Below, one piece after another: positions 9,214 through 36,636 of a DNA stretch of 64,000 nt. The notes under the pieces were generated by a model, which worked only from the letters and a program-made list of their open reading frames with translations, searched no databases and was not told where the DNA came from. A program made the translations under genes and the position numbers. This stretch comes from Ptychodera flava. Its lineage: Eukaryota > Hemichordata > Enteropneusta > Ptychoderidae. The stretch spans positions 21,171,632 through 21,235,631 of the forward strand of contig NC_091938.1 of assembly GCF_041260155.1 (NCBI RefSeq), read 5' to 3'. How positions within the stretch are numbered: the first letter of the stretch is position 1; each line of letters begins with the position of its first letter.

Positions 9214-9415
9214 GATTGAAACCGCCGTTTGTTCGCAATCGTTGCTGTAGATATGGTCGTCTTTGTTTCATTTTGTAAAATTTAGCTCAATCACTGACTT
9301 CGTTAACGACATCTATGTTAATCGCATTAAAAAATTATTTACGCACCGGTATTTAACACATTTTCTCGATGTTTTGTTATTGTATTTCACAGTTTCGTCC
9401 GAACTTGTTGGAAGA

Positions 9416-11269
9416 ATGAAAAAACGAAGATCTCACATTTTGATGATATCGATATTGCTAGAAATTTACCTAATGAGCGTGGCTCAAACGCAAGCATGCC
9501 CCTCATCATGTGCCTGTTTCGAAACGACTACCGATTGTAGAAATCGTGGACTGACGGAAGTTCCACAAGGCGTTCCTCCGAGCACGACGATTCTAAGACT
9601 TTCCGGAAATAGGTTTCAATATCTTGGGAACAGTTCCTTTGAAGGACTGCCAGACATCGAGACACTGAATCTCGCTCGAAGCAACATAGAAATCATTTCT
9701 GAACAAGCTTTCTATGGACTAAACAAGCTGAGAGAGCTATATCTTGAGGCAAACAAACTGAAATCATTACCCGCATCAGTCTTCGAGGGGTTACAAGAGT
9801 TGCGATATTTGTACCTCCAGGCGAATCAACTAGAACACCTACCAAACGACCTCTTAAACGGATTGAATGAGCTTCGAATTCTCAACTTGGGATCAAACAA
9901 AGTCTCGTCGATTCCTTCTGAGCTGTTCAATGAGACTGGTAAGCTTCAAGCGTTTCATATTTACTCTAACCAAGTATCTTCGTTGCCTGTTGCACTATTC
10001 CGAGGTCTCACAGAACTTACAGGTCTATACTTTCAAAGCAACGCTCTGACACGCTTGCCGGGCGGCATATTTGACGGACTTACCAAGCTCCGTACGTTGT
10101 TGTTAAGTCTAAACTCTCTTCAATCATTACCTGTCAATGCTTTCCAGGGATTATCAGAGTTACGTATTTTGCGCATGTTTGCAAACAATTTAGCTTCCCT
10201 GCAAATGGACATTTTCGATGACTTAAGCAATTTAGAACAACTGGATTTATACGCAAACGTCCTTACGTATCTACCGGACAAAATATTTGACAAACTAACC
10301 ACGTTGCGTGCACTTCGCATGTATAATAATCCCTGGATATGTGACTGTCGCCTGCGTGACGTCAGAAGTTGGCTTGAGGATAACAGTGAGGGTCTTGATT
10401 TAGGACTGGGTACGATACAATGTTTATCACCAAATCATTTGGCTGGAAGAAGTTTATTGTCCCTTTCCATGGAAGATCTGGTATGTACTTCACCACCAGC
10501 CTTCTACGCACCACGTATTGAACAGCTTGCAAGTGAAGGTGACGACGTCATACTAGAATGCAATGTTACCGGAGTCCCTCCTCCACTTGTTTATTGGCTC
10601 CTCCCATGCGGCAATATCATATCAGCGAATACGAGCGAATTAGAGGCCTGCTCTCACAAGTCATTATTCCTCACAAAAGCAGGCAGTTTGCAACTAACAT
10701 CAGTGACAACGGAAGATGAAGGCACGTATTACTGTGCTGCGATGAACGCTGAGGGAACGTCCCTGGGAGTACGGACACTGGAGGTACTCACGATAACTCA
10801 TACTACATCTTCTAGTCCCAAAATTACATCAGACGAAGGGACATCAACAATTCAATCAACGGTTCCAGAGGTTAGAAGCAGCCAAACATCTCTGTTGAAT
10901 GTTTCGTCCATAGTTGCCTTCATCATTGGCGTCATCTCAGCAATCCTGGTGTGTGTTATTTCTTTTGTGGTCATCCGGTATTCTTGCCTTTGCAAGCCTT
11001 CTAGAACTGCAAAAGATGGTGGTCACTACGACGACGCCGAACTCTGTGATGTTAGCCAACCGGGAAGTAAAAACAAGGGTCTCACTCCGCCTACAGCAAA
11101 TTCGTTCCACGGTCACTATGAAGACGTAGAAAACAGATACGTCTCTCAGGAAGAGGCGAACACCCAGTCAGGTTATGTAAACAGGCATGTCATCCAAGAA
11201 CTGGACTCTGGGTACACATCCCTATCGCCGGAAACTTCCCCAAAAACCATATATGATGTAGTTGTGTGA
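9416..11269 (+). CDS. LRR-Ig single-pass receptor with ITIM/ITSM-like tail
   Basis: The product is 617 aa. The start at 9416 is preferred over the upstream open frame because it opens a clean signal peptide (residues 1-27) and lies just after a good 3' splice site (pyrimidine tract ending in CAG near 9392), which suggests an intron in the 5' UTR. Domains in order: LRRNT with 'CPSSCACF'; ten 24-residue LRRs (about 52-304); LRRCT starting 'NPWICDCRL'; one Ig domain (about 363-458) with the 'DEGTYYC' signature; a Ser/Thr-rich stalk; a transmembrane helix (about 495-521); and a ~95-residue tail. The tail has two related acidic tyrosine motifs ('GHYDDAELCDV' and 'GHYEDVENRYV'), a Grb2-type 'YVNR', an ITIM-like 'SGYTSL' and an ITSM-like 'TIYDVV' at the C-terminus. 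The LRRs, with 'LPGGIFDGLTKL'-type units, resemble LRRIG and lamprey VLR-type repeats. Likely a plasma-membrane adhesion or immune-type receptor; the ligand is unknown. All coding sequence lies in one exon. Confidence 0.9.
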   Translation: MKKRRSHILMISILLEIYLMSVAQTQACPSSCACFETTTDCRNRGLTEVPQGVPPSTTILRLSGNRFQYLGNSSFEGLPDIETLNLARSNIEIISEQAFYGLNKLRELYLEANKLKSLPASVFEGLQELRYLYLQANQLEHLPNDLLNGLNELRILNLGSNKVSSIPSELFNETGKLQAFHIYSNQVSSLPVALFRGLTELTGLYFQSNALTRLPGGIFDGLTKLRTLLLSLNSLQSLPVNAFQGLSELRILRMFANNLASLQMDIFDDLSNLEQLDLYANVLTYLPDKIFDKLTTLRALRMYNNPWICDCRLRDVRSWLEDNSEGLDLGLGTIQCLSPNHLAGRSLLSLSMEDLVCTSPPAFYAPRIEQLASEGDDVILECNVTGVPPPLVYWLLPCGNIISANTSELEACSHKSLFLTKAGSLQLTSVTTEDEGTYYCAAMNAEGTSLGVRTLEVLTITHTTSSSPKITSDEGTSTIQSTVPEVRSSQTSLLNVSSIVAFIIGVISAILVCVISFVVIRYSCLCKPSRTAKDGGHYDDAELCDVSQPGSKNKGLTPPTANSFHGHYEDVENRYVSQEEANTQSGYVNRHVIQELDSGYTSLSPETSPKTIYDVVV

Positions 11270-12316: not shown

Positions 12317-14600
12317 AATTGATTTATGTTGGTTTCATGCATTATATAGATTGACAATGTTGATTGGTGCAAATGCAAGGAAGCAATTATATAAGTATGT
12401 AACACAGTAACTAAAACAGCAACTAGTAAACAAGTAAAGAAGTTAGCGATGAGTATTTTCACTCGTTTTCTCAAAGAAATGAGAAGAAAACGCATTACAT
12501 AAGTATAATTCGACTAGAGATACTTTTACTTCATATAAAAAAAGGTTAATCAAGAACTTTGACACTATTTACAAAATATATCGAGAACTGGTTTAGCTGT
12601 AATTATGATTTGGTCCGATGCGTATCAGGTACAATCACGCAAATTGCGAATATTGCCATAGCTTAATTTGTTAACAAACGTAGAATTTTACCCGAATTAT
12701 GACATTGGCTGGCGATATATATATTGCCCTAATTTTTCCTACACTGCATAAATATCGTTGGACCAGACCGGTTTCAACACATACAAATTGATTTGGTTTG
12801 CTCGACGACATAATGAGGCACGATAGATGCAAATAAAGGTATTAATTAAAATTTGTTTGTGTGAAGTCCGTTTTTTCATTCAAATCATTCAAATGTTTTA
12901 CTTTTTAAGATAGAGATTGCCGGAACTGCTCCTGTGCAACTTTCTTATTCGCGAATAATGCATTTCAGGGATCATGTCAACAAAGCTACAATATTTTAAT
13001 ATTACGATGATGTCCATGTAAATTATGACAAAGCTCTTTAAATTTTCAGCAATCTCAAATGTACCTTGGTTATAGTGTTAATATTGGTCTATGGATCTCA
13101 CACTGCCTTTAATCGCCGTTTCGACAACCCCCCCAATTTAAATTATACTCTGTTGTATGTAAACCATTTTCTCCACTTTTTAAATTTAACTTTTAAGTTA
13201 ACTCACGTCCTTGAATTACACTATCAACTTGCTTAAAAGTTTGCTACTCAAATTGAACCGCAACCGTTCACAATTCCCTACCGGCATACCTTAACCGTCG
13301 TACAAGGCAGTGTGCCTTCCTTGGTAGTCTGGTTCCCTGACCCATTTTCCCCGGTAGAGGGCGTGGGGAAAATAGGGACTACCTTCCTTGGGTGCCCCTA
13401 AAATTCAATCCAGTGGTTCATAAGAAAGGACACATCATATTATGTATACAAGTATAGTAGGGATTCTCGCCAAAGGGATTGGAAGATTTCATTTGTATCT
13501 TATCTAGGGTTCAAACGAAGTGATAAACATGACGTAAATGGAAGTGAAAAACAAAAAAACGTAAGCATTGAAATTCAAAAATTAATACATATGGCAAAAA
13601 ATTCAGGGCAAGTAGATTTAAAAATGAAGGTGAAAAAAATGCAATGAAAGAAAGTGTAGAATAAGCTAGGTTGAAAATATCCACTGTGGGCAAAATGGCC
13701 TCTATATTGTTCACTCAAAGTGTGACAATTTTTTGCCGCACATACGCTGAATGAGCGTAAAGAGAGCCAAATCAAGCTTCCGCGTAATGTTGAAAACTTC
13801 GCCAAATTTCCTAGCCGCACAGCTAAATATTCAGGAAAGAGATTCAGATTCCATTTCTTCATATGTTCCTCTGTCCATTATGATATTTCGGCAATAATTT
13901 CATGAATTTATTCTTAAAATACCGAAGCGAAAATACTCTATGCAAAAATAGGCGAAAACACGGCCAACAGCACAAACGATCGTAAACTCGTCATTTCATA
14001 AAAATAAGAGGGAAATTTAAAAAACTAAAACCATAGAGTTTGAGTTAACCTTCATGAGATGCTTAATCTCAAATATTGTGAGAAATAACAGCGAAATGAA
14101 AAATTTAAACCGGCGGGTTTTTTCAGATGTATTTTTCATTTTACGATGTGCCGAATAATCTCGATTCCCATAGAAAACAATGGCGTTTATGCGCGTCCGA
14201 TCGACCGAACACATTGCAAATTTCTCGCCGGTTCAATTTTTTTAATTCTGAACCAATGATAATGAAAATTGGCACGGTGATCCTTTGACTAATAAGCAAA
14301 AATCGTATCGTTTTAGATTTTTGAATTTCTTCGTAAAATTTGTTTTATTGCCATTCTATTTATTCTGATCACTGAAATATACTGTTGCCGTCAACAATAT
14401 GGCGATCTGACGGCGTTTACATGTGCAGAACAAGGGTCTGAAATTGACGCAAAATAATCAGCAAGTGTCTCCTAAATTGTACAGATCAAATACCTGTCAG
14501 GTTGTTGTCTTTTATACAAAATTTGGGTGAATATGAACCATGAACATCGCAGTAAATTGGTAAAAATAACACGAAACGGAAGCGAACTGGTGTAGAGTCT
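12317..14600. other. No recognisable gene
   Basis: AT-rich. Open frames on the minus strand at 13.5-13.9 kb have no recognisable family features. The last few hundred bases may be the LINE's 5' UTR, but the 5' boundary cannot be seen. Confidence 0.45.
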
Positions 14601-14750
14601 CCACTGTGAACGTGTAGTGAACGTTATCGATCGATATTTTTGGTACATGGCGGCGGTGTAGAGTGTACACGTGTTTCATCAGCTCTGCATTCTGACAGTG
14701 ATTTTAGCAGATTTAGTTCATTGCACAAGTCAATTTTTGTTGGATTGAAA

Positions 14751-15281
14751 ATGCATACGCCAGAGAAGCGAGAGAGAAAGTTAAATAACAGTGAGGACTT
14801 TATATACGGTGAAGAATTCGACAATTTACTTTCGGAAGATGAAGATGTTGTACGAGATGAAGCTACAGTGGTGAAGCTGACGATGAAGCGACCAATGCGT
14901 ACGCGTGGAAGGAAGAAAAAGTTCTATGCCGTAACTGTCGGGAGGTCGACTGGTATTTTTTGTGACTGGAAGTCATGTCATGAAGTTACCAACGGATACC
15001 CTGGAAACTGCTTCAAAGGTTTTGACACAGAAGCTGAAGCACAACAATTCTACGATCAGTTTCAGGTAACGGATTGCGCTTCCGACTGCGACGTAGATTC
15101 TCTCGATGGCGGCCATGATGACTGTACGGATACAGATACGACGCGTGTCACATCTGATGACTTTGAAAGTTTATCAGAATCCGAAACGACTGACACTGTT
15201 GTGAAAAGGTTGTTCATAAATGATGAAGATATAAACACCAAGTGTTTTGATAGTGTACAGCTTAGTCGACGGAGAGAGTAA
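14751..15281 (+). CDS. LINE ORF1 first part: RNase H1-type hybrid-binding domain
   Basis: 176 aa from the ATG at 14751, after a basic and acidic leader. Residues about 54-104 read 'KKKFYAVTVGRSTGIFCDW', then 'NGYPGNCFKGFDTEAEAQQF'. This matches the RNase H1 N-terminal hybrid-binding (Cauli_VI) fold pattern: FYAV..GR..GI...W..C...V.GYPG..FK.F.T..EA. The fold binds RNA/DNA hybrids. The C-terminal third is very acidic (Asp/Glu/Ser). It overlaps the next frame by about 35 bases, so the two may be one ORF1 split by a shift, or separate coupled frames. Such a domain in LINE ORF1 could hold the RNA-DNA intermediate during target-primed reverse transcription (inference). Confidence 0.75.
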   Translation: MHTPEKRERKLNNSEDFIYGEEFDNLLSEDEDVVRDEATVVKLTMKRPMRTRGRKKKFYAVTVGRSTGIFCDWKSCHEVTNGYPGNCFKGFDTEAEAQQFYDQFQVTDCASDCDVDSLDGGHDDCTDTDTTRVTSDDFESLSESETTDTVVKRLFINDEDINTKCFDSVQLSRRRE

Positions 15282-16287
15282 AGAAAAGTTGTCAACAGCT
15301 GATGAGGGGCTTACTCGACCCTGTACTGATGCGACAGTACCGATATGCAGGGAAAACCATGAAAGTACCAATGCCAAAGATGTTCGCGTTAAAGAGATTT
15401 CGGGTACAACTGAAAGTGCGGACAGGTTAGATTGTACGATAGCTGCGTTGGAAGAAAAGATCATAGAATCTACGGTTGTTCTGAACTACGTACAACAGGA
15501 AGTACACACGTGTAAAAATGACTTGGACAGTGTGAAATGTACTGTACAAAAAGTGGGTCGTCTTGAAGACGAACTGTGTAGACTTAGATCGGAAAATCGC
15601 GCGCTGAAAACTGAACTTCAAGAATCAAACAAGAACTGGTCGGACAAATTAGTAGAAATGCAAAGAGTCTTTGATGTGAATTTACAAGAGAAATTAAGTT
15701 TAATTGTGTCTGAGTGGGAGAGAAAATTTGAGAGCTTCATCAGCACAAATGTACGTGTGCACGAGATTGAGAGTGGCGTTTCACAGTCTCGTGCTGAGAT
15801 AAATTCAAAAGACCAGGTGCAGGTGTTTGACATTGTAGATGAAGAACAAAAAGTCAATGAATACAATGTAACAAATATTCACAAAGATGAATTACAAAGT
15901 GTTAGACAAACAGAGGGTGAACAAAAGAATGATGAACATAATATTCTGGGTGAGTCTCAAAATGCTGTTGATAATATTGTACACAAGACAAAGTCAAGCT
16001 TGTTAAACTGTGGTAACATTATAGACTGTAGTGGTATAGATACCGTTGTGATTGGTGACTCTATTCTACAAAAACTGTCTCCAACTAAGATATATCCTTA
16101 TAGACGTGTTAAGAAGGTGTTTACTCCAACCTTGGCTGGTGCACAAGTATTTGTAGATAGTGTAGAGAATTGTGATGATGTAAGGACAGTTATTATTCAT
16201 GTTGGTATAAATGACCTTATAAATGACTCAGATGTCAAATCATGTCACACCAGTTTTGATACTCTATTGAACAAAGGTGTTCTATAA
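15247..16287 (+). CDS. LINE ORF1 second part: coiled coil plus SGNH-esterase start
   Basis: This frame overlaps the end of the hybrid-binding ORF and opens without an ATG. It codes for a long charged helical region (about 15430-15760) rich in heptad Leu/Val, then an SGNH-hydrolase N-terminus. Block I is 'TVVIGDSIL' (catalytic Ser context) and the later 'IIHVGINDLI' is the G-x-N-D block. The rest of the esterase lies in other frames downstream: 'VSSVLPRLDGRI' near 16315, and 'DLIHINYWG' near 16470, which supplies the D-x-x-H catalytic pair. Esterase domains of this kind are known in ORF1 of CR1/L2-like LINEs. Confidence 0.75.
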   Translation: MIVYSLVDGESKEKLSTADEGLTRPCTDATVPICRENHESTNAKDVRVKEISGTTESADRLDCTIAALEEKIIESTVVLNYVQQEVHTCKNDLDSVKCTVQKVGRLEDELCRLRSENRALKTELQESNKNWSDKLVEMQRVFDVNLQEKLSLIVSEWERKFESFISTNVRVHEIESGVSQSRAEINSKDQVQVFDIVDEEQKVNEYNVTNIHKDELQSVRQTEGEQKNDEHNILGESQNAVDNIVHKTKSSLLNCGNIIDCSGIDTVVIGDSILQKLSPTKIYPYRRVKKVFTPTLAGAQVFVDSVENCDDVRTVIIHVGINDLINDSDVKSCHTSFDTLLNKGVL

Positions 16288-17113
16288 ATTCCAAAAGCAT
16301 TTGTTGCTGTGTCAAGTGTTCTACCGAGATTGGATGGACGCATTTCTGGTATAAATGCCAAAATTGAAAGTTATAATGAAGCAGTTCATATACCTGTTCT
16401 AAATTGAGGGGTTGTGTATTTGTTATACATGATAGGCTTTCTAAAAGCAGACACCTATTCAACCCTGATTTGATACACATCAATTATTGGGGCACCAGTC
16501 TGCTTGTATCTGATATAAAGAAAACTATATCTGGAGTGTTCAATGGAGGGAGGAAGTACCATGGTGTTAAAAAAAATATCATAATGTACAACCACGTGAA
16601 TACCATGGCAGGTCAAATAGTTCTGGTAGCCGGTATGGCTCTAGTGTTGATCCAGTAACGGATATGACAACCACAGAAGTGGGTTTGATGGGGCAAATGG
16701 TAGTCATTATGACTTCCACAGAAGTGAGTTTGACAGGGCAAATGGTAGTCGTGGGTATTACAGAAATAGATATGAAATAGAAACCAATATGGTAACAGGT
16801 ATGGGTAGTCATGGAAACTACAGAAATGGTTATGGTAGCATGTCAAGCTATGACACTTTCAAACCAAGAAATACGTATAATTCTGGTAATAATAGATATG
16901 AGAAGTCATACATGTATAACAGAAATAGACCATGGAAACCTAATGGCAATGCCTTGATACTCTATTGAACAAAGTGTTCAATAAATTCCCGAAAGCATTT
17001 GTTGCTGTGTCAAGTGTTCTACCGAGATTGGTTGAACGCATTACTGATATAAATGCCAAAAGTTATAATGAAGCAGTTCATATGACCTGTTCTAAATCGA
17101 GGGGTTGTGTATT
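16257..17113 (+). repeat. Two direct ~160-bp copies inside LINE ORF1
   Basis: 16257-16423 and 16957-17113 are about 90% alike: both start 'GATACTCTATTGAACAAA' and end 'GGGGTTGTGTATTT'. They flank the G/Y/R-rich stretch. The repeated part is the middle of the esterase domain, so the element has suffered an internal duplication or template switch about 700 bp apart. Confidence 0.85.
16590..16970 (+). pseudogene. LINE ORF1 tail rich in Gly/Tyr/Arg/Asn
   Basis: In one frame this stretch reads as an imperfect repeat of aromatic, Gly, Asn and Arg residues (for example 'GSHGNYRNGYGSMSSYD' followed by 'RYEKSYMYNRNRPWKPNG'), and the DNA has matching short imperfect repeats of GGTAGTCATGG type. The composition resembles RGG/YG-type low-complexity RNA-binding tails. 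It follows the esterase domain, so it is probably the C-terminus of ORF1. Minus-strand open frames here are shadows. Confidence 0.55.
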
Positions 17114-17211
17114 TACTTAAAGTTAGACAAGTAAGTCTCTTTTTCCCCTTCCATTCATTTATCCATTCATTGATCAGAAATGGACATTATTCTCAGAGTT
17201 TGTAGTGTAGA

Positions 17212-18587
17212 GTGTACTTGATCTTAATTTGCAAAAATCACTGTCTTTCAGACATTTTTTACCATTTCATGTGTAAATTTGCTGGCAAGTATTTTCCAAA
17301 GCTTAAAACATGTCAAGATAAAACCTCAGTTTCTTGTCAAAGTAATATCACTATCTGTTCTTGGAATGTGCATGGTCTTACCAATAAAACCTTTTTCGGA
17401 CGAGTTTTTAGATTTTATCAAACAGTTTGATGTAGCTTGTTCACAAGAAACCTGGGTGACTTGTAGTAAGGAGTTTTTCCATATCAAGGGTTATAGTGTT
17501 TTTCGTTCTGAAAGAAGTTGTAATGTTAAAAAAAGAGGTAGAGCTGCTGGAGGGTCAGCAATCATGTTCAGATCATCACTGAAAAAAGGTATTTCAAAGT
17601 TAAAATCTAGTGTTTCTGATTTTTTGTGGTGTAAACTTGATAAGCAGTTCTTTTCTTTGAACAGTGATGTGTACATTTGCTGTGTGTATATTCCACCTGA
17701 AAATTCTTCTGTACATGTGAAATATGATTATTTTGATGCATTAGAGAGGGAAATAGCTCAATACTCTTTGAGAGGTGATATTGTTGTAATGGGTGATTTA
17801 ATAGTAGAGTTGGATTTCTAACAGACTTTATCCAGAACGATGATATAGTATATACTCCAGTTCCCAATTTTATACATCTGATAATTTTAGAGTAAGAAAT
17901 TCTCAAGATTCCTCGCTACCAAAAGGTAATAGATTTGGTAAACAATTGATTGATCTTTGTCTGAATAACAACCTGTTAATTGCTAATGGGAGAACTGTTG
18001 GAGACTTATCTGGAAAATATACCTATCATCATCCAATGGGATCTAGTGCTGTTGATTATTGTATCACTTCTAAGTCAAATTATAAGAATTTGCAATACTT
18101 TAAAGTGCATGATTTTAATGCCATGTCTGATCATTGTGCCATAAGTACTTCATTGAGTTGTAATTACAGAGTAGTTCATGACTCTCCTCCAAATAAGCTT
18201 CCGCCAAAATATGTTTGGGAAAGTAGTAGTGCTGATGCTTTCAATAGTGTGATGAGTAATCAAGATTTTACAAATACATTTGATAAGTTTTTGAAATATA
18301 ATGAAGGTCTTGTTGATACGAACTCAGCAGCTATCACGTTAACTAAAATTTTTTCTAAAGGAGCCCGAGAAAGTTTAAAAATTAAGTACAGCAATCCTGG
18401 AAAAAAGAAGAAAAGAAATCAGTGGTTTGACCAAGATTGTAATAATTTACGCAAAGAACTAAAGATCGCTATGAAAGCCTTTGATAAGAATCCCAATGAT
18501 TATTTTTTAAGATGCAATTATTTCAGCTTGAGGAAAAAATATAGAAAACTTCTGAATTTAATAAAAAGCAGTATAGCAGATGTTTAA
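17212..18587 (+). pseudogene. LINE ORF2 N-terminal APE-type endonuclease (broken)
   Basis: The pieces in order are 'ITICSWNVHGL' (strand 1 with the catalytic Asn), 'DVACSQETWV' (catalytic Glu in the QET motif), 'IVVMGDL' (start of the GDFN block, interrupted there), 'HPMGSSAVDYC', and 'AMSDHCAIS' (catalytic Asp-His). They lie in three frames, so at least two shifts break the domain. It would nick target DNA for target-primed reverse transcription. Confidence 0.85.
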
Positions 18588-19482
18588 TAGACAGATTAGA
18601 ATCAACAAATAATAACTCAACTGAGTATTGGAATATTTTGAAGAATCTTCGTTCCAAATCAGGGGCATCTGTAGATGAGGCTATACATTGTAAGGACTGG
18701 GTAAAATATTTTAAGTCACTTTACAATTCATCAACAACTGTCAATGAAAATGGTATTTCACATGAACTAAATGATCTTGAAAAAATAAAGAGATTGAATA
18801 CGTATCTAAATATGCCAATAAAACACAATGAGTTATTGCTTGCTATAAAACAATTAAAAAATCATAAAGCGCCAGGAGAAGACTCAGTTATAAATGAAAT
18901 GATTAAAGTCAGTAATAGTCTTTGTATAAGTAGCATTCTTAAGTTATTTAATCACATTTTAGAAAGCGGCAATTTTCCAGCAGTTTGGAAATCCACTTTA
19001 TTAGTTCCACTTCACAAGTCAGGGGATAAGTGTGATCCGAATAATTATAGAGCAATTGCTCTTTCAAGTTGTTTCTCAAAACTTTTTACATCAGTGATGA
19101 ATAGGAGGCTTATTAAGTATCTTGAGGATAATAATCTTTTTTCTAACTTCCAGTTTGGTTTTCGAAAAAACAGACGTACATCAGACTGTTTTTCTGTTAA
19201 AGACTGCTATTGATAAGATGTTCTCCATGAAAGATTGAAAAATTCATCAAACAATCTTTATGTGGCATTTGTAGACTTTAGAAAAGCATTTGACAGTGTT
19301 TGGAGAAAAGGCCTCTTTTTAAAAATGCAGAGGTTGGGTATATCTGGTAGCTTTTACAATGTTGTTAAGTCTATGTATGATGATACTCAGTACAAAATGA
19401 AACTGTCCAGTGGTATTTCAGATGGGTTTATTTCCTCATGTGGCGTGAAACAAGGTTGCAATATGTCACCAACATTATTTAA

Positions 19483-19825
19483 TATTTTCCTAAATGATCT
19501 TCCACACGAGTTTGTGGTATTTCTGATTCTCCTATCGAAATTGGAGATCAGAAGTTAAATTGTATATTATATGCAGATGATTTGATACTTATGTCAAAAT
19601 CAGCTGATGGTTTACAAATTGTTTAGATAAGTTGCATGCTTACAGTAAAATATTATTTTCCTAAATGATCTTCCACACGAGTTTTGTGGTATTTCTGATT
19701 CTCCTATCGAAATTGGAGATCAGAAGTTAAATTGTATATTATATGCAGATGATTTGATACTTATGTCAAAATCAGCTGATGGTTTACAAAATTGTTTAGA
19801 TAAGTTGCATGCTTACAGTAAAATA
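19483..19825 (+). repeat. ~171-bp tandem duplication covering the YADD motif
   Basis: 19483-19653 and 19654-19825 are nearly identical apart from a few single-base length differences. Each copy runs from 'TATTTTCCTAAATGATCT' to 'CTTACAGTAAAATAT' and encodes the YADD catalytic block, so the element carries this RT motif twice. Confidence 0.92.
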
Positions 19826-20284
19826 TGGGGCCTTTCAATCAATATCAATAAGACAAAAACAATGATATTTAATAGAGGTAACCGTTTCATAAAGAACCGG
19901 CAATTTTTTATTGAGAAAAGTGTGATTGAAGCAGTGAATCAGTACACATATGTTGGTGTTGTTTTTACACCTAATGGAAAGTTCAAACAAAATATGATTA
20001 ATCTTAAAAATAAGGCTATGAAAGCTTTATTCAGCATTAAAAAGTCTATATTGTGTGAAAAAATGCTGAATCCAAAGCTGTGTTTAAACTATTTGATTGT
20101 TTGATTGTCCCAATTCTTTCATATTGTTCTGAAATATGGGGGACAGAAATTACAAGTGTTGATAACTGCCTTGAAAGTCTTTGTATATCATATCTCAGCT
20201 TTATTTTAGGAGTAAGTAAACGCACCCCTTTTGAGGGTATTAGATCTGAGCTAGGTAGATTTCCTTGTAAAATTAAGCTCAATA

Positions 20285-20480
20285 TTTTTTTTTCAGTCCA
20301 TCATCCAACGGGCGTTAGCCCAATTACAGGATGAGGTATGCATAACCCATTAACCCCCAATGGAGCACTGAGGAGTAAAGTGCCTTGCTCAAGGGCACAA
20401 CACCGTGCTGGAGTCTCGAACTCACCGTCCTCCGACAGTGAGTCCGTTACTCTGGACCTATACTGGGTCTTGAACCGGGT
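20285..20480 (-). mobile_element. tRNA-derived SINE inserted antisense in the LINE
   Basis: Read on the minus strand it has tRNA-like heads with B-box 'GAGTTCGAGACCC', a core 'TTGAGCAAGGCACTTTACTC', and a 3' end 'GATGATGGACTG' followed by an A-run. The second copy at 54.4 kb has the same order. The core resembles the widely shared SINE central domain with 'CCTTGAGCAAGGCACTT' (from memory of V-type SINEs). It splits the LINE RT thumb region. A short direct repeat cluster ('ATATTGGTGTAGATTAAATA') lies just beyond it. Confidence 0.85.
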
Positions 20481-21390
20481 CTCGAACTCACCAATATGTC
20501 TGTGATAAGATATTGGTGTAGATTAAATAATTAAATAAGATTAAATAAGATATTGGTGTAGATTAAATAATTTACCAGGAGACCATATTTTGAAAAATGC
20601 ACTCAGAGAAAATGTACAAATCAATTCTCCATTGGCAAAATTTGTTCATCACGTTTTGGGAAGTTACAATCACAGTCGTGTTTTCAGTGAATTTAGAGTA
20701 AAATCTTATTCTCAGTTATGTAAAAAGTTAAAACATGAGTATGAAAATCAATACTTAGAAACTTGGAAGAGAACCCTTTTCAATGATTCAAGGAAGAATG
20801 GAAGTGGTAACAAACTGTGCACTTATAGAATCTTCAAGACCGAGTTTGGTTTTGAAAAATATTTAAGAGATATTTCAGATTTCAGGTTACGTAGAAGTTT
20901 AACAAAATATAGACTGAGTGATCATAATTTGCGTGCTGAAATTGGTAGGAAATGTAAACCTCATTTACCTTTAAATGAAAGAATTTGCTTGAGATGTGAT
21001 AGTAATGTAATAGATGATGAGTTTCACTTTTTATTCACATGCAAGTGTCATATTTCTGAGAGATTGATTTTGTGCCAGAAAAGCGGAACAGATTTTTCTA
21101 TCACTATGAGTGTCGAAGAAAAAGTAGAAGAGATGAAAAAGATCATGGAACAGAATTTTCTAAACCTTGCTATATTTGTAAGGAATTCTGGTGTTTGCTG
21201 ACCCCTCCAGTAGCTACCTACAGTTAGCTGTTTACAGGCAGAGTTATAAATTGTACTTCAATTCAATTTACTTGGATTTTAATATCCATTTGATGGTGTT
21301 CAGTTTTGGACATGTTGTTCTTTCATCTGAAATGTACCATACCACACTCTCTGTCAGTGTGTGTTGAGTAATAAAAGATTGATTGATATT

Positions 21391-22170
21391 CTTTTCTTGC
21401 GAATTGATACAATGTCGTGTTGCATACCCGCGGATGGCATGGCGCCAAACTTGTCCAAAGAGCGCCAAAATATGCTGAGACATAAAAGTATCACCAAAAC
21501 TAAACAAATTGTCTTCGATTCAATTTGACTGGAAGAAAACAACCGATACGTTGATTTTATGGTACATAAGTCAATATATACGGGCTGTCATGGAAAAATT
21601 CATGGCGTAACCTGAAAATACGAGCGACAGGCGAGCAGATTTCGATCGATATTTTATTGAAATGAAATTGATACAATGTTCGCTGTCGTCACCAGTAACC
21701 AGCCCAAAGCGTTGTCCGGCGGGGGCGCTGTACCCCGCTGTACTGAAAAATTTAGGGCCCTTTTTGCCCATAGTGATCTATGACATTTACCCAATCGGCG
21801 ATTCATCGATAACAGTTACACTGAAGGAACATTTGACTGGCCGCAGTTATTGCCAATAATGTATTCGTTAGTTCATTCAGCTTGAAAAGAACGGCACGAG
21901 AATGTGTTTCAATATTTACGACGCTCATAATCTCATTCCTGGTGCATGGTATCCCGGGGTGGCGAATAATTAAAAACATCATTGTATACACTGTGACCGC
22001 AATGCTTCGTTCAGAAACTGTGCATGAGCTATGCTATCACACAGATAGTTGTGTGATACGAGATCTAACTAAATCTTACAACAACAATTTGTTTTTGGTT
22101 ATCCTTGCGGACTTTAACAATTACTAATTAGGTATACTCAATTCCGCCCTGACCTATTTTGTGTGTGCTA
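21391..22170. other. Region between LINE and first acyltransferase gene
   Basis: No coding family or clear repeat is seen. Confidence 0.4.
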
Positions 22171-25300: not shown

Positions 25301-26890
25301 GCACCTAGCACTTTTGAGAAATTTGAAAAATATGAAGATCCAATTATTCCAAATGAGTTCCAATCGTGTTAGTTGTAGGTAGGGCAGTTGTGACAAGTAT
25401 TAAAGCAAACTTTCAATCAGTCTCTTCCATTACCAAGAATAAAAATCGGTAAAAGCAGAGGTGACTGTGTAATTTTCTCACTAGAAAAAACTTACCCAAT
25501 ATTTTCCGATATTACCGATTTGAGATTAAGATGGTGAAAACTTAGTTCTCTCTAAGCTTGAAAATGAGCCCCAACAACTGATAGGGCTAAGTAAAAGGTT
25601 GAGAGCCCGAATATCTGTCAGAATTGATGCAAAATACTATTAGTAGGGCATATACAATTTGGAATGAATGTTGCTCTTATGAAGTAAACATAATTTTACA
25701 ACGCTTTCTTATACCAAGTTCTGTTCGTTTTGTTATTTTGCAGCCAACTGTGCAGAGATTGAACCAATTCTACGCGAGATAATTATCGAGAATGGATATT
25801 CTTTCAAAGACTCTACGATGGCTGATATAATGGTCCTGGAAAATGTCGATTGTCTTCGGGAAAGGTGATTTGCTAAATCTTAAAATCTATTTTTTGTCAC
25901 TGCCTGGCTTTTCCGAAAACTGACCTAAGGCTTTTTGAGTGCATATTTGTTTCATTCGTATGTACACACTTTTAGAATAGGGATCCATTCGAGAGATTAA
26001 AAATCAACAGGTACTAAGTTTCCTATATTTTCATCGATTGATGAAATTGAATGTATTCAACATGATATTTTGGCGTTTCTTATCATCCCAATAACTGTAA
26101 CTGTGCAGTGTGATACATTCCTCCTCAACTATTCTCTTAGTCTCTGTGTCACCCTATTTCCCCTTGTGGGGTTGTCTATCTGGCCACCCGTCCTTACGTA
26201 TGTATCTTTCCATCCTACCCCAATGCCCGTCTTTGTGAATTTATCTAATACAAGTTATCTTCTGAGTGAATGACTTCTTCTGTAATTTTTCTTGGCGTGC
26301 CATTATGTCTCCACCAAACTATGAAGTGTTCCTCTTTTTTACTGGTTCCCAAAGAATTTTCGTTTTATTTCCCGCTTGGTGTTAAACGACAATCGCTATA
26401 TTTCCGGACCCGAAAGTATAAATAGTAATGAAATTGACATTATAGATCCCGGAACATAAGACTCCCAGAAGATATGACTCTGTCAGCGGTTAGGCAAGAA
26501 CAGCATATCGAAGAAATTTCAAGAGCTTGGCCCTTTGGTGATCCTACTTGTTCCCCGGAATACATACGCTATATGAAAACACAAATCCTGAACTTACCAA
26601 ACATCTGCGTGCAGAAAAATGATGAACTAATCGCCTGGTCACTGCAACAATTCCACGGTGCCATTGGTAATACTTTTGTAAAGCCTGAATATCGTGGACA
26701 AGGCTTAGGAAGCCTTGTGACCACTGAGTTAGCTAAAAAGGTACTAGCCAATGGTATGGCGGCATATATCGAATGTGAATCTGGGGACGACGTGTCCAAA
26801 AATATGCACATCGGTGTTGGCTTTAAGTACATTCCAACATCAACGCAAGTATATTTAACATCATATAAGTGCCCTGCTCATACCAATTAA
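22307..26890 (+). CDS. Glycine N-acyltransferase-like gene 1 (five exons)
   Basis: Exons: 22307-22417, 22698-22811, 23461-23575, 25744-25864, 26446-26890, all with GT-AG borders and phases 0,0,1,2. They give 301 aa, close to the ~296 aa of vertebrate GLYAT. The start could also be 22310, which matches gene 2. The C-terminal half is the GNAT acyl-CoA-binding fold: 'AWPFGDPTCSPEYI' corresponds to the vertebrate FW.FGG region, and 'VKPEYRGQGLG' is the acyl-CoA pyrophosphate loop (R-G-x-G-L-G). 'HIGVGFKYIP' lies near the end. Expected reaction: acyl-CoA plus glycine (or a related amine) to N-acylglycine plus CoA, for detoxification or fatty-acid conjugation, in mitochondria or cytosol. It is a tandem paralogue of the gene at 30.8 kb. 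Intron 3 is large and carries several MITEs. Confidence 0.9.
24038..24150. mobile_element. Palindromic MITE, CAAGGGAC family (copy 1)
   Basis: Ends read 'TATAGCTCAAACAAGGGAC' and, inverted, 'TTGTTTAGGCTATATA'. The middle 'CATTTGCCC'-type blocks are also inverted copies. The matching element at 32642-32752 sits in the same intron position in gene 2, so this copy predates the gene duplication. Confidence 0.75.
24650..24758. mobile_element. Palindromic MITE, CAAGGGAC family (copy 2)
   Basis: Inverted ends 'TATAGCCCAAACGAAGGACT' and 'AGTCTTGTTTGGCGTATA', with 'GTACCCTCGAGG' / 'CCCTCGGGTAC' inside. It lies in intron 3 of acyltransferase gene 1 and corresponds to the copy at 34690-34985 in gene 2. 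Confidence 0.75.
25157..25370. mobile_element. 214-bp MITE, AACACGATTGGAAC family (copy 1)
   Basis: About 30-bp TIRs: 'AACACGATTGGAACTAATTT' at the left and its near reverse complement at the right, ending 'CAATCGTGTT'. A second copy lies at 37516-37726. Non-coding, in intron 3 of gene 1. Confidence 0.8.
25395..25625 (-). mobile_element. Partial copy of the TTAA MITE family
   Basis: In reverse orientation it shows 'GAGAGCCCGAATATCTG', 'AAAATGAGCCCCAACAACT' and 'AAAATCGG'-type blocks of the family seen complete at 62.7 kb. Both ends are eroded. Confidence 0.55.
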
Positions 26891-30846: not shown

Positions 30847-33800
30847 ATGGACGTGAAGTCACACAATTATCGCGCTTTGGAGAGAAAAGAGGTCGCTGAG
30901 AAATTCACAGCTTTCCAAATGCAGTTGGCGAAAGGAACCCTCGTTGCGATAAAGGTAAGTTATCATTCGAAGGCATAAATGAGTACTCTACCTATTGAAA
31001 TCTTCATAATGACAGTCTTAATATAGCGTTGTATTGATAATTAAACATCTTGTGCTTCGAATACTTTGATAATACGGTACTTCACGTCTGAAAGCCTCTC
31101 CAAACTCCTGACCTAGAATTTACCACCGTGGGTACTTTGAATCGCAGATGACCTACCTGATGAAACACGTACTAGAAGGTAAATGGATCCATTTCGAATT
31201 TATTGTTGATTCCCGGAAGGAGTTCGAAGACACCTCAATTATTGGACGACCGTCAATAGAGGTAAATCTATGAAAGAAACCATTAACTTAAGGTAGAATG
31301 TGTCTCGGGGACACATATTCGGACTCTCAAACCTTTTCAATTCCTCTCTGCTGACCTAACTTCTCTGCTGACCTAACTCTTGTTGGGCTCATTCTGAAGT
31401 CGTTGAAGCAAGAAAAGCTTTCATGCTCTTAGTTTTTTTTGACAATCTATTTTTTTCTTCATAGAGTTAACACAGGGATGGGACCCATTTCAAATTCAAA
31501 GTATCGGTAAATCTAGGACTATTTGTTTCTCTAGTACCAAATTTTGGACAGTGAACCCCAATTTTTTATCTTGATTTGAAAAGTTAATGGTCGAAAGATT
31601 CCTTGGGGAGTTCGAGCGGAAGTTTAAATCTTTTTCTCTCGAGGCGCATACTACCTAATAACTGCAGTGTGAGTCACCCTTTCTAATTACCGAAAAACGG
31701 GTCTGAAACCGATGAATGACCTCTTATTTCAATCGTGACATGGGGTGGTATGCAAACATCTAGCATTGCACATTGAATGGAAACTAGGTCAAAACATTGA
31801 CCCTGAAAACGTTTTTAAGAGTCTTGAAATATACAAGCCTATTAAAGCGATTATGATACAATGTGCTGTTCATGTCGATCACTCTTTTGCCTTTGTCTTT
31901 TTGTGCATTAAAGTCGGTGTTTTTCTTCGTGCTTTGGTCTCGTGTCACTTGGTCTATTTTTGTCTTAACTCACATTAAGGAGTAGCTGAGAATCCTGTTT
32001 AAACTATATGGACCGTCTTCAACCCTGGCTGCCAACATAATCTGTTTGTTCAAATAAGTTGACAGGCATCGATTCACGTGACCTGTCAGTTAAATGTCTT
32101 TTTTGCCTTTCTTCAAAAGTATGATCTAGGCATCAGTAACATAGTCATATATTCATCAGAAAAGAACCATCTGAGATATCTCTTGAGGCAACCAGGAATC
32201 ATCGACTGGGCTAATCCAACACTTGAGTTCGCGCGTAAGTATTCCCATCATCGTTGCCTGGGTGGTACCTCTCCTTGGGTTATGCTATACGGTATTCTTC
32301 CGCTAAGTAGGTTACGGTGGAATGTATCCTAGGAGAGGTCCTAGTCTAGACTAACATCACAAACAATTAAACAGACATCGTTCTCTGTGTAAATCGCAAG
32401 CCACTGTCATGCGAAGCTATAGGAAGCAAGTCATTGCATGCCTCATGATCGTACTTTGAACTTCGCGCGCTCCATATAATTTAATGACAGCTCATTGATG
32501 ACGTCGCGGATGGTATAGTCATCATTAAACAATTTTAGGACTTAAAAATGTTCAAATTGCATGTTTTACACAGAAAATCCGGTTTAAAGAAAATTACGCA
32601 TAAAATCATAAACCAAAAAACAGTGAATTAATACTTTATATTATAGCCTAAACAAGGGACTGTGTTCGCGATGGTAGATGGTCATTTGCCCAGTGACAGA
32701 AGGGTAAATTATCTCCTGCCTAGAGGGTACATAGTCCCTTGTTTGGGCTAATATGATTTTATTACATGCCTCTTTACATTGTTTTCATTCCAACTATTTG
32801 AGTTTATTGCAAATGACAATCATATGCTTCGGATGAAAATCCGTTAAAATACATCGATTTTCGTTAACGAACGGCGCATTGATATATTGAAAACCATTAT
32901 GTGGCGTATCGATTTTCATGCAATTTTTTTCAAAACGTGGATTACATATGTAACATGTAATCCCAAAGTTGTCAAGCGGGAAAAATAGTGATGAATATGC
33001 GGCTCGCGACGTCATCGATGAGTGAACGGTGGAGCGTGTGACATTCTATATTCGGGGCATGTAATAAATCAATACCCCATTCGATGATAAAAATAATTCT
33101 TTTTCTCGCAGATTGCCATCTAACATGAAAATAAAACATATAAGTGTCATTTTTTGCTCACGTGTTGACACACGTGAGCATATGTCGCAGCGATGTCTGT
33201 CTGTCTGTGTGTCTCTGTGTGTGTGTGTGTCGTCTGTCTGTCTGTCTGTCTGTGTACTCAATATCTCAAAAACGGCTCATCAGATCAGAATCAAATCTGG
33301 TACATAGATTCAGTTTGCAAATGGCAAGAACTGATTAGTTTTTGGTGGGTGTGGCTTGCTTACTTTTTGCTCATTTGCATAATTAATGATTTTAGAAAAA
33401 ATAGATATATATTGACAACGACTGCACACAATTTGATGAGATTCGCTACAAATGTTGATCACACCAAGATATATCAGCTTTGAAAGATATTAAGGGTGAC
33501 GTGAAAGATAATTACTAATTTGCATGTTTAAGAACTTTCCTCATTAGGGATATATATCTGATTTGACTTGATCAAAATTGACAAAACTTGGTATGTATAT
33601 TGAAGATACTATGATTTTACATTATTGAAAGTCATTAAGCATTTTTACTTCATCAAACTCTTAATTTGCATATTTAATGAACTTTTGAAATTAGGGATAT
33701 TTATTTGAATTGACTTGACCAAAATTGATGAAACTTGCTATGTACATTAAAGATACTATGATCTAACATTTTTGAAAGTCATTAAGCATTTTTACTTCAG

Positions 33801-36636
33801 CCAAATACTTATTTGCAAATTTAATAAACTTTCCTAATTAGATATATATATCTGAATTGACTTGACCAAAGTTGATGAAACTTGCTATGTACATTGAAGA
33901 TACCATGATATAACATTATTGAAAATCATTAAGCAGTTTTACTTCAGCCAATTCCCTATTTACATATTTAATGAACTTCACTAATTAGGGATATATATCT
34001 GAATTGACTCAACTGAGGTTGATGAATCTTGCTACATATATTGAAGATACTATAAAACAACATTATTGAAAGTCATTAAACTTTTTTACTTCAGCCAATT
34101 TCTAATTTGCATATTTAATGAACTTTCCTAATTAGGGATGTTTATCTGTATTGACTTGACCAAATTTGACGAAACTTGCTATGTACATTACAGATACTAT
34201 GATACAACATTGAAAGTCATTAAGAATTTTTACTTTAGCCAATTCCTTATTTGCAAGTTTAATGAACTTTCCTAATTAAGGGTATTTATATGTCTTGACT
34301 AGACAAAAGTTGACGAATTGCTTTTTACATTAAAGATGTTATGATACGAGATTATTGAGAGTCATTTAACATTTTTACTTCAGCCAATTCCTAATTTGCA
34401 TTTTAATGAGAACATTTCAGTCAATAACTAATTTGCATATTTTAATGAACTTTCCTGATTGGGGATATGTAAATTTGGCTTAAGAATCAATCTGTGGTGA
34501 ATATTATTCATTATGTTGATCATAACACTTTCAATGAAGTTGCAAACATGTGGCGAAGGTTCAAATTTACACATAACTGCAATATATAATGAAACACGTG
34601 AGCATTTACAGTTCATATCTGGTCAAATAAACGAAAACACTAATGTCTTGGCGTGAATATTAGCTAAGAGACGCATTTAATAAAAGCATTATAGCTCAAA
34701 CAGGAAACCATTTGCCCGTTAGGTCTAGTAAATGATCACCTACATTTACCCCCGGCTCATAGTTTATTTATTTTATTTATCTACACTTTTAAGGAGCGAC
34801 CAAGTTACTCAAAGAGTAATATTCATTGGGGTTCACGTATACAGAGAAAAAAGCAGCAGAATATAAATACAAAAATCAACAATTCCAATACAAAGAACAA
34901 AAATAATTAGAGGAACGTTTTCTTTTCTTTTATGAATTAGGAATATTTTCTTTTATGAATTATAGTCCCTTGTTTGAGCTATAATATACATTATATCATA
35001 TCAGTATATTGATGGCGCAAATACAGCGTTCTGATTGGTCGAGACGCGAAAAGGAGCATGGTATATTCGCGATACACAACGGCTGGCATATACGCATGAG
35101 CCCTCCAACTTAGGCAAAAATCCGTTTTTGACGTTCCATGTCAGAATTTAAATATACTGTTATGATATAATAGCAATAAAAATCACACCCAGCGACGTTA
35201 TATCACTCGAATTTTGCTATCGCTCGTGCATATATGTCGTGAACTGGTCAAAATCTTGTGGTATACTATCGCTGGGTTTGCTTTATGCTTTAATATAGTA
35301 TCATAATAGGCCCAAATAAAATAAAAAAGTTTGAGAGTCCGAATATCTAACTTCGAGGCGGTATTATACCTTGACACCAACAATTCTAGCAAAATATTGT
35401 ATTGCAAATACGATTTTGAATTGATGTTGCTTGTATGAAGGAAACATAATTTTACAACGCCGTCTAATTCAAAGTTTTGCTCGCTTTGTTATTTTACAGC
35501 TAACTGTTCAGAGTTTGAACCTATTCTACGCGAGATAATGATAAAGAACGGATATTCTATCAAAGAATCTGTGATAGCTGATGTAATGGTCCTCGAAAAT
35601 GTCGGTGATCTTCGCGACAGGTGATTTGCCAAATCTTATTATTTATTTTCGCTTAGCGGCTTTTCCGCAAGTTGCCCTATTTGCCCTTTTATCCGTGTGG
35701 ACACACATTTAAACATATGATCGTACTTGGGAGAGCAAATTTATACGGCCAAATTTTCCTTATTTTCATCGATCGATAAAATTAATACATGTATGCTGTT
35801 CTAATGTTTCTGGTCATTTTCTCTTCGTAACTGTGCAGTGTGATACATTCCTCCTCAACTCTTCTCTTTCTCTCTATGTCACCTATCTTCCTGCTTTCTA
35901 TGTCACCTATATCGCCCTTCGAGTGGTTTTCTGCCTGTCAGTTCGTCCTTTCGTACATCTATCTATCTTATTCAGGTACTCATCCTTGTGATTTCATCAA
36001 ATACAAATAATCTTCAAAATGTTTTCTTGTACTGTTTGGCAAGGCTCGCAAGTACGTCTCCATCAAACTAGTAGTGTACCGGTCTCTATCTGGTTTCCTG
36101 AGAATTATTGTCAAACGACTGTCGCTATATTTCCGAACCAGAAAGTATGATAAGAAAGATTATATATTAATAAAGAAATTGCTGCACCTTACAGATCCCG
36201 GGACCTAAGACTCCATGAAGGCATGACTCTGTCAGGAATAAGGAAAGAAAAGCATATCGAAGAAATTGCAAGAACTTGGCCCTTTGGTGATCCCGCTTGT
36301 TCCCCGGAATACATACGCTTTATTAAAACACAAATCTTGAACTTCCCAAACATCTGCGTGCAGAAAAATGACGAACTAATCGCCTGGTCACTGCAACAAT
36401 ACCACGGCGCCATTGGTAATACTTTTGTAAAGCCTGAATATCGTGGGCAAGGCTTAGGAAGCCTTGTGACCACTGAGTTAGCTAAAAAGGTACTAGCCAA
36501 TGGTATGGCGGCGTATACCGAATGTGAATGTGGGAACGACGCGTCCGCAAATATGCACATCGGTATTGGCTTTAAACACAGTCAAATATCAAAGCAAGTA
36601 TATCTGGCATCTTTTAAGTGGCCTTCTCAATGCTAA
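30847..36636 (+). CDS. Glycine N-acyltransferase-like gene 2 (five exons)
   Basis: Exons: 30847-30954, 31148-31261, 32120-32234, 35500-35620, 36195-36636, giving 299 aa with the same intron phases (0,0,1,2) as gene 1. The GNAT loop 'VKPEYRGQGLG' and 'AWSLQQYHGAIGNTFVKP' are conserved, so both copies look functional. Differences cluster in the N-terminal part and the last 30 residues ('HIGIGFKHSQIS' against 'HIGVGFKYIPTS'), so acyl or amine preference could differ (inference). The expected role is conjugation of acyl-CoA with glycine or a similar amine. Intron 3 holds the large TIR element. Confidence 0.9.
31288..31658 (+). mobile_element. TTAA MITE family, complete copy
   Basis: Starts 'TTAAGGTAGAATGTGTCTCG' and ends 'CGAGGCGCATACTACCTAA', imperfect TIRs of about 20 bp at a TTAA-like target. 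It lies only 26 bp past exon 2 of acyltransferase gene 2 and has no counterpart at that place in gene 1. Confidence 0.78.
32642..32752. mobile_element. Palindromic MITE, CAAGGGAC family (copy 3)
   Basis: Ends 'TATAGCCTAAACAAGGGACT' and 'AGTCCCTTGTTTGGGCTAAT'. Same intron site as 24038-24150 in gene 1. Confidence 0.78.
33155..34604. mobile_element. 1.45-kb TIR element with internal ~146-bp satellite
   Basis: The left end 'TGCTCACGTG' and right end 'CACGTGAGCA' are perfect 10-bp inverted repeats. The left end also forms its own hairpin (33155-33180, 10-bp stem, 6-base loop). Next come TCTG/TGTG microsatellite and a unique 'CTCAATATCTCAAAAACGG' segment, then about eight units of ~146 bp built on 'AATTTGCATATTTAATGAAC' (near 33370, 33518, 33664, 33811, 33957, 34108, 34248, 34392). 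No transposase. Gene 1's intron lacks it at the matching site (about 24585), so it inserted after the duplication. Confidence 0.78.
34690..34985. mobile_element. Palindromic MITE, CAAGGGAC family (copy 4), split by an insert
   Basis: The outer parts (34690-34745 and about 34965-34985, ending 'AGTCCCTTGTTTGAGCTATA') belong to the family. About 200 bp from 34750 interrupt it, with a T-rich start and AATA-rich inside that look like a short retroelement tail; I could not classify the insert. Confidence 0.65.
34986..35470. other. Intron 3 of acyltransferase gene 2, last part
   Basis: Contains a degenerate inverted pair ('ATATCATATCAGTATATTGA' region at 34985 against 'TTTAATATAGTATCATAATA' near 35290), suggesting a foldback relic, and a small fragment of the TTAA MITE family near 35318-35350. 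No exon seen. Confidence 0.4.

Follow-up and report, generated by a model that had tools for sequence, protein, structure and literature searches.

An RNase H1-type hybrid-binding domain upstream of an SGNH esterase in a degenerate LINE of Ptychodera flava

Among long interspersed nuclear elements (LINEs), those with an esterase-type (Type IV) ORF1 protein (ORF1p), such as ZfL2-1 of zebrafish and CR1, combine a coiled coil and a basic stretch with an SGNH esterase, and their second open reading frame (ORF2) encodes an endonuclease (APE) and a reverse transcriptase (RT). ORF1p of ZfL2-1 forms dimers through its coiled-coil part, and its esterase, which hydrolyses esters, also binds anionic lipids, but neither of the two alone binds oligo-A RNA (PMC3905857). 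The same 2013 survey found the esterase-containing ORF1ps of RepBase to be without an RNA recognition motif (RRM) or other structural RNA-binding domain; it asked how such proteins meet RNA and proposed basic peptides (PMC3905857). The window analysed here, a 64,000-nucleotide stretch of the Ptychodera flava genome (NC_091938.1, positions 21,171,632 to 21,235,631), contains a dead copy of an element that resembles these LINEs and carries, upstream of its esterase, a hybrid-binding domain (HBD) of the RNase H1 type. The locus is probably a degenerate animal non-long-terminal-repeat (non-LTR) retrotransposon, whose active ancestor would have made an ORF1p composed of an HBD, a coiled coil, an SGNH esterase and a basic low-complexity tail.

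The first-pass annotation of this DNA, made by a model from the letters, had placed esterase ORF1s in CR1/L2-like LINEs, which is right but too narrow, as they are also found in RTEX and Penelope-like elements (PMC3905857). Metcalfe and Casane classified 448 Jockey-superfamily elements in 2014; their Table 1 gives RRM, CCHC, PHD, Tnp22, coiled coil, zinc finger/leucine zipper and esterase as domains, with no HBD among them, and the esterase is confined to two vertebrate groups. In the available main text of that paper 'RNase H' and 'ribonuclease' are absent, and 'hybrid' occurs once, for a hybrid element (PMC4120745). The window ORF1 shares with Type IV proteins the SGNH esterase, the basic stretch and the APE/RT ORF2, and a possible coiled coil precedes its esterase. 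Unlike those of the 2013 survey, as far as its available text goes (PMC3905857), it adds an N-terminal HBD, and thereby breaks the regularity 'no structural RNA-binding domain', which was an outcome of that survey and not a definition of Type IV. No LINE ORF1 with PF01693, the Pfam family of the HBD, was found in titles and abstract openings among the literature matches listed, a scope that leaves most subscription papers and RepBase outside; the annotation had likewise known of no esterase ORF1 with an N-terminal HBD, and none is described in those matches.

We know of no esterase in the caulimovirus TAV/viroplasmin protein (P6), which, unlike the window ORF1, is a plant pararetrovirus protein with a role in the translation of polycistronic RNA. 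It carries the same PF01693 (PMC7102451), as does the viroplasmin domain of capE in a fungal Helitron (PMC4289320), although capE is a captured gene of a mushroom DNA transposon and not part of a LINE ORF1. The esterase, too, has been recruited by other retroelements, in the GDSL-esterase ORF3 of rotifer LTR and Penelope-like elements. Unlike the window ORF1, that ORF3 is a separate frame, reportedly without a coiled coil and captured independently of the LINE esterases, and the available text does not mention an HBD (PMC5408684). Thus, whilst PF01693 in mobile DNA is already known, its addition to an esterase-type LINE ORF1 is unlike anything in the surveys compared.

The HBD lies in an open frame (Table 1) that begins MHTPEKRERKLNN and passes from an acidic leader through a basic run, KRPMRTRGRKKK, to FYAVTVGRSTGIFCDWKSCHEVTNGYPGNCFKGFDTEAEAQQFY; the basic run may be likened to a nuclear localization signal. 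Residues 57-100 match PF01693 over profile positions 1-44 of 44 at E=2.4e-17 (63.3 bits, cut-off 21). All PDB sequences matched at E<=1e-5 are RNase H1 (3bsu, 1.1e-6; 1qhk, 2.3e-6; 6vrd, 7.4e-6), and two further matches, with E-values of 0.17 and 0.3, are unrelated proteins. Aligned without gaps, the domain is identical to human RNase H1 at 20 of 44 positions and to the yeast enzyme at 18 of 43. An AlphaFold2 (AF2) model of 67 residues, built from the single sequence, has a mean pLDDT of 68.3 and the order beta-beta-alpha-beta-alpha, the fold given for the HBD in PMC7657459. The best Foldseek match to this model is the human HBD, 3bsu_H (probability 0.98, E 0.17), with a TM-score of 0.71 when scaled to the length of the target and 0.53 when scaled to that of the query. 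Judged by profile, sequence and model, the frame clearly encodes a genuine RNase H1-type HBD. The first-pass annotation had claimed such a domain and named a PF01693 profile search and structure prediction as checks; the significant, full-length Pfam match, the predicted succession of secondary-structure elements and the first place of 3bsu bear it out.

That the PF01693 match is a chance likeness within a short stretch of 44 residues is scarcely credible. The domain is small, the Foldseek E-value is just 0.17 with zero matches under 0.001, and confidence in the AF2 model is moderate, the five models spanning pLDDT 38.2 to 68.3. Against these stand the Pfam E-value and the three RNase H1 sequences of the PDB, with E-values of at most 7.4e-6, on which chance was rejected.

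The same leader and domain are met again in P0001, an ENA-sourced protein of 118 residues on a 964-base contig, which covers 40% of the HBD-piece query. It shares the start methionine and leader with the window ORF1 (55 of 73 aligned positions identical); the start and TRGRKKKFYAVTVGRST are common to both, and the basic TRGRKKK is kept. Inside the HBD the two diverge because of a frameshift, or a misreading, in the P0001 copy. The shifted tail of this protein scores 88 against the window frame of 14752 (reading frames are named here by positions 14751 and 14752), the maximum in 2000 shuffles being 51. The hidden frame of P0001 permits 31 of the 37 HBD residues compared (37 of 52 positions) at the best of 17 offsets, the next permitting 10; shuffles at the best offset permit 7.2 on average and 18 at most (n=5000). 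As this is far above the shuffles, the HBD on this comparison recurs, with the same leader, in another copy. P0001 ends before the esterase, so it is in the window copy that HBD and esterase are linked. The search for further copies, which the first-pass annotation had recommended, therefore succeeded for leader and HBD, but found none that holds both HBD and esterase. Of the candidates from the protein collection, one of 34 matched the HBD piece and two of 176 the RT piece. Eleven coding pieces compared with the window (tblastn, E<=0.01) gave no further copy, the other matches being internal duplication alone, and blastn of 14600-22000 gave no match in phage records.

The window copy of ORF1 is broken. 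The frame of 14751 runs until 15281; that of 14752 is open from 15235 to 16284 and ends at the stop 16285-16287; there follow the frame of 14751 at 16380-16655, a short third-frame piece recognised by eye, and the frame of 14752 at 16651-16968. Coding phase was scanned with scores for codon usage, for which six ORF2 stretches served as the training set. Of the ten steps between 14640 and 15180, nine favour the phase of 14751, and at the remaining one, 14940, that of 14752 is marginally ahead (0.8 to 0.1); all steps between 15240 and 16320 favour the phase of 14752, and there is no non-coding gap between the two. In the coil/esterase frame the sole ATG is at 15658, downstream of the heptad region, with none between 15235 and 15657. 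From the direct succession of the two coding phases, and from the lack of an ATG before 15658 in the esterase frame, we infer that HBD and esterase formed one ancestral ORF. The joined ORF1 of the first-pass annotation holds in so far as its parts are collinear and their phases abut; it is supported in part, because the frame changes between HBD and coil and no second copy that spans both was found.

Several observations weigh against such a single protein, beginning with the different frames of HBD and esterase in the window copy. The phase-scan scores are low in absolute terms across the HBD part and already positive about 100 bases upstream of the ATG, and stop codons count for much in this measure. 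G+C content falls from 43% in the HBD ORF to 40% in linker and coil, 36% in the esterase and 33% in ORF2. A read-through ORF1 gave no match at E<=0.01 among the 7995 best-ranked candidates of the protein collection, in a search whose length filter removes fragments as short as P0001. Viral contigs scanned with ORF1 and ORF2 pieces yielded no confirmed relative, and none of 22 stretches did so when prokaryote genome contigs were scanned with the HBD. The esterase scores below the curated Pfam cut-off (32.9) and its AF2 model is unusable (pLDDT 31.9).

Two other arrangements could account for these features. The HBD might be a separate small ORF (ORF0) of the same element, or be joined to the rest by programmed frameshifting, with no fusion by simple translation. 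This fits the differing frames, their 47-base overlap and the failure to find a second copy across the junction, but an esterase frame without an ATG from 15235 to 15657 argues against it, as do the remaining frame changes and the stop, which resemble decay; the junction, moreover, coincides with a GAGAGA run, a kind of sequence presumably prone to slippage. On balance we think it unlikely. Very unlikely indeed is a host gene or another mobile element lying beside a 5'-truncated LINE. The G+C gap between HBD ORF and esterase or ORF2 would agree with such a neighbour, albeit with linker and coil falling between, and P0001, which stops short of the esterase, gives no tie between HBD and LINE. 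The abutting phases, with no non-coding gap, speak against it, and the P0001 copy is frameshifted like a dead transposon, although a sequencing error could do likewise.

Human residue numbers were transferred to the HBD through the ungapped alignment. The domain is like that of RNase H1 (human 3bsu, yeast 1qhk) in matching PF01693 over its full length and in keeping the equivalents of the human contacts Y29, W43, F58 and K59. It differs in having G at the position of K60, a further point against hybrid binding, and G and G at those of R52 and A55. F58 is presumably a contact residue of the human HBD, and W43, K59 and K60 are presumably the one tryptophan and two lysines referred to below. K60 contacts the DNA backbone, and the contact role of Y29 comes from the same source; R52 and A55 make contact via main-chain amides, and the fly has G and N there (PMC7657459). 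That one tryptophan and two lysines matter is stated in the title of a reference cited in PMC3750045. With four side chains kept, K60 replaced by G and R52/A55 by G/G, the hybrid-binding surface appears to be mostly but not wholly retained.

Reverse transcription by LINEs creates an RNA/DNA hybrid at the target. Across the 10 pieces compared with Pfam (E<=1), with 19217-19558 outside the scan, no RNase H catalytic domain was found; in this, and in having its HBD in a LINE ORF1, the element is unlike RNase H1. Since a hybrid is made at the target and no RNase H was seen in the ORF2 pieces scanned, an ORF1p that holds hybrids is a reasonable proposition. The coiled coil would multimerise ORF1p, element RNA would be the ligand of the basic tail and of the basic run ahead of the HBD, and the esterase would provide contact with lipid or membrane, as shown for zebrafish ZfL2-1. 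The HBD might then grip an RNA/DNA duplex, most likely the cDNA:RNA hybrid of target-primed reverse transcription, and so hold the ribonucleoprotein (RNP) at the target or shield the hybrid. Hybrid binding, and each step of its use in target-primed reverse transcription, is plausible. Taken as a whole, capture of an RNase H1 HBD by an animal LINE lineage into an esterase-type ORF1p, where it would read the cDNA:RNA hybrid and hold or shield what target-primed reverse transcription produces, is put forward tentatively, at a little under an even chance. If true, a single protein would bring together membrane lipids, the RNA of the element and the integration intermediate.

The fold by itself does not reveal the ligand, because the yeast 'HBD' favours double-stranded RNA (dsRNA; PMC7657459), which again counts against a hybrid reader. 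As the chief alternative, the HBD would act mainly on structured, double-stranded element RNA or in protein contacts and not on the cDNA:RNA hybrid, standing in as an RNP-assembly domain for the missing RRM or zinc knuckle. This is a real though doubtful possibility: the human HBD also binds the protein P32 (PMC3750045), the K60 position is G, and the esterase ORF1ps of RepBase are without other structural RNA-binding domains (PMC3905857). The isolated fly HBD, by contrast, binds RNA/DNA hybrid with a dissociation constant of 140 nM, its binding to dsRNA or double-stranded DNA (dsDNA) being undetected; in the fly enzyme variants tested, binding to hybrid is tighter than that to dsRNA or dsDNA by at least one to two orders of magnitude, and the human HBD binds dsRNA only weakly (PMC7657459). 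Retention of the Y29, W43, F58 and K59 equivalents also speaks for the hybrid. The HBD may in any case offer this lineage's answer, beside basic stretches, to the 2013 question of how ORF1p contacts nucleic acid (PMC3905857). Because the domain is small and its contacts and hybrid-binding fold are known, whether ORF1p acts at the integration intermediate can be tested directly; if the reading is true, the HBD joins the domains that LINEs shuffle in ORF1.

Table 1. Coordinates of the element's features within the window
Feature	Position	Strand	Basis or remark
ORF1 N-terminal part: acidic leader, basic run, HBD, acidic linker	14751..15278	+	open frame, 176 aa, stop 15279-15281
Basic run KRPMRTRGRKKK	14886..14921	+	immediately before HBD; from sequence
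RNase H1-type hybrid-binding domain (HBD, PF01693)	14919..15050	+	Pfam, PDB sequence matches, AF2, Foldseek
Overlap, coding phase passing from frame of 14751 to 14752	15235..15281	+	open frames, coding-phase scan
Heptad-repeat region, possible coiled coil	15418..15627	+	a/d hydrophobicity against shuffles
SGNH esterase domain	16036..16545	+	interrupted: stop 16285-16287, frame change near 16390; PF13472 and catalytic blocks
N/G/Y/S/R-rich basic ORF1 tail with 45-bp tandem repeat	16651..16968	+	composition, repeat finding
Second copy of esterase coding middle (16256-16421)	16953..17114	+	90% identical
ORF2 endonuclease (APE) pieces	17228..18584	+	PF03372 6.3e-5, PF14529 1.5e-4, both below cut-off
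ORF2 reverse transcriptase pieces	18545..20104	+	PF00078 3.3e-5 (below cut-off), 2.1e-10 (above); P0002 2e-48
Repeat inserted within ORF2	20285..20493	+	94% match to 54671-54463, opposite strand
ORF2 C-terminal region	20545..21201	+	without Pfam match
Putative 3' end: AATAAA-type signal and short GATTGATTGAT tail	21367..21390	+	sequence

The first-pass annotation had also named a coiled coil, an esterase and a G/Y/R-rich tail; of these the SGNH esterase and a basic low-complexity tail are borne out. In the best 56-residue heptad register 13 of 16 a/d positions are hydrophobic, a value equalled or bettered in 6 of 300 shuffles, and the best 42-residue register is equalled or bettered in 30 of 300; a coiled coil upstream of the esterase is thus possible, with moderate support. 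A Herpes_BLRF2 match in the coil piece (0.0011, under the cut-off) was read as coiled-coil likeness. The read-through esterase matches PF13472 at E=8.7e-6 (26.8 bits), and phmmer against the PDB returned no esterase up to E=10. Its catalytic blocks are complete, with GDSI (Ser codon 16060), LAGA (Gly 16138), HVGIND (His 16198, Asn 16210) and DLIH (Asp 16467, His 16476). As in Type IV proteins, Ser, Gly, Asn, Asp and His blocks are all present and a His stands four residues ahead of the oxyanion Asn. ZfL2-1 has a transposon-specific His191 (H191, N195) and Ser228 (PMC3905857), and the His at 16198 fits the former. The tail is basic and of low complexity (105 residues, isoelectric point 9.5), but N and S are abundant besides G, Y and R (16 N, 13 G, 13 Y, 12 S and 11 R). 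The extra copy of the esterase middle lies between the tail and ORF2 and can be read without a stop in the frame of 14751; it may have arisen by tandem duplication or template switch.

APE and RT pieces lie collinear downstream of ORF1, a single RT piece exceeding its Pfam cut-off, and Tandem Repeats Finder reports a 172-bp tandem duplication inside the RT (19483-19826). P0002, an RT relative from elsewhere, is 87% identical over 44% of the query (2e-48), which indicates that the ORF2 family is present elsewhere. When P0002 was compared with prokaryote contigs, one of 24 matched, a 25% RT relative at L001:2186-2800 on a contig of a metagenome-assembled genome (MAG) labelled SAR86; this is perhaps eukaryotic DNA in a MAG bin. 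At the element's ends, 21361-21430 and 12801-14760 have no common word of 9-16 bases.

Elsewhere in the window, 53500-53946 on the reverse strand is an open frame that by eye resembles the C-terminal region of a further LINE reverse transcriptase; it has no Pfam match at E<=0.01. A single forward open frame at 9251-11266 encodes a leucine-rich repeat-immunoglobulin protein (LRR_8 2.1e-45, Ig_3 7.5e-13) with a transmembrane stretch recognised by eye, and a C-type-lectin match in the window is weak (0.0041, below cut-off). Two near-alike forward open frames of the GNAT/FR47-type acetyltransferase kind, 26438-26887 and 36154-36633, are probably a local duplication. A satellite-like array of 6.2 copies of a 147-bp unit occupies 33510-34409, and four copies of a 60-bp unit form a tandem array at 57124-57364, within open frames of both strands, the minus strand showing a 20-residue repeat by eye.
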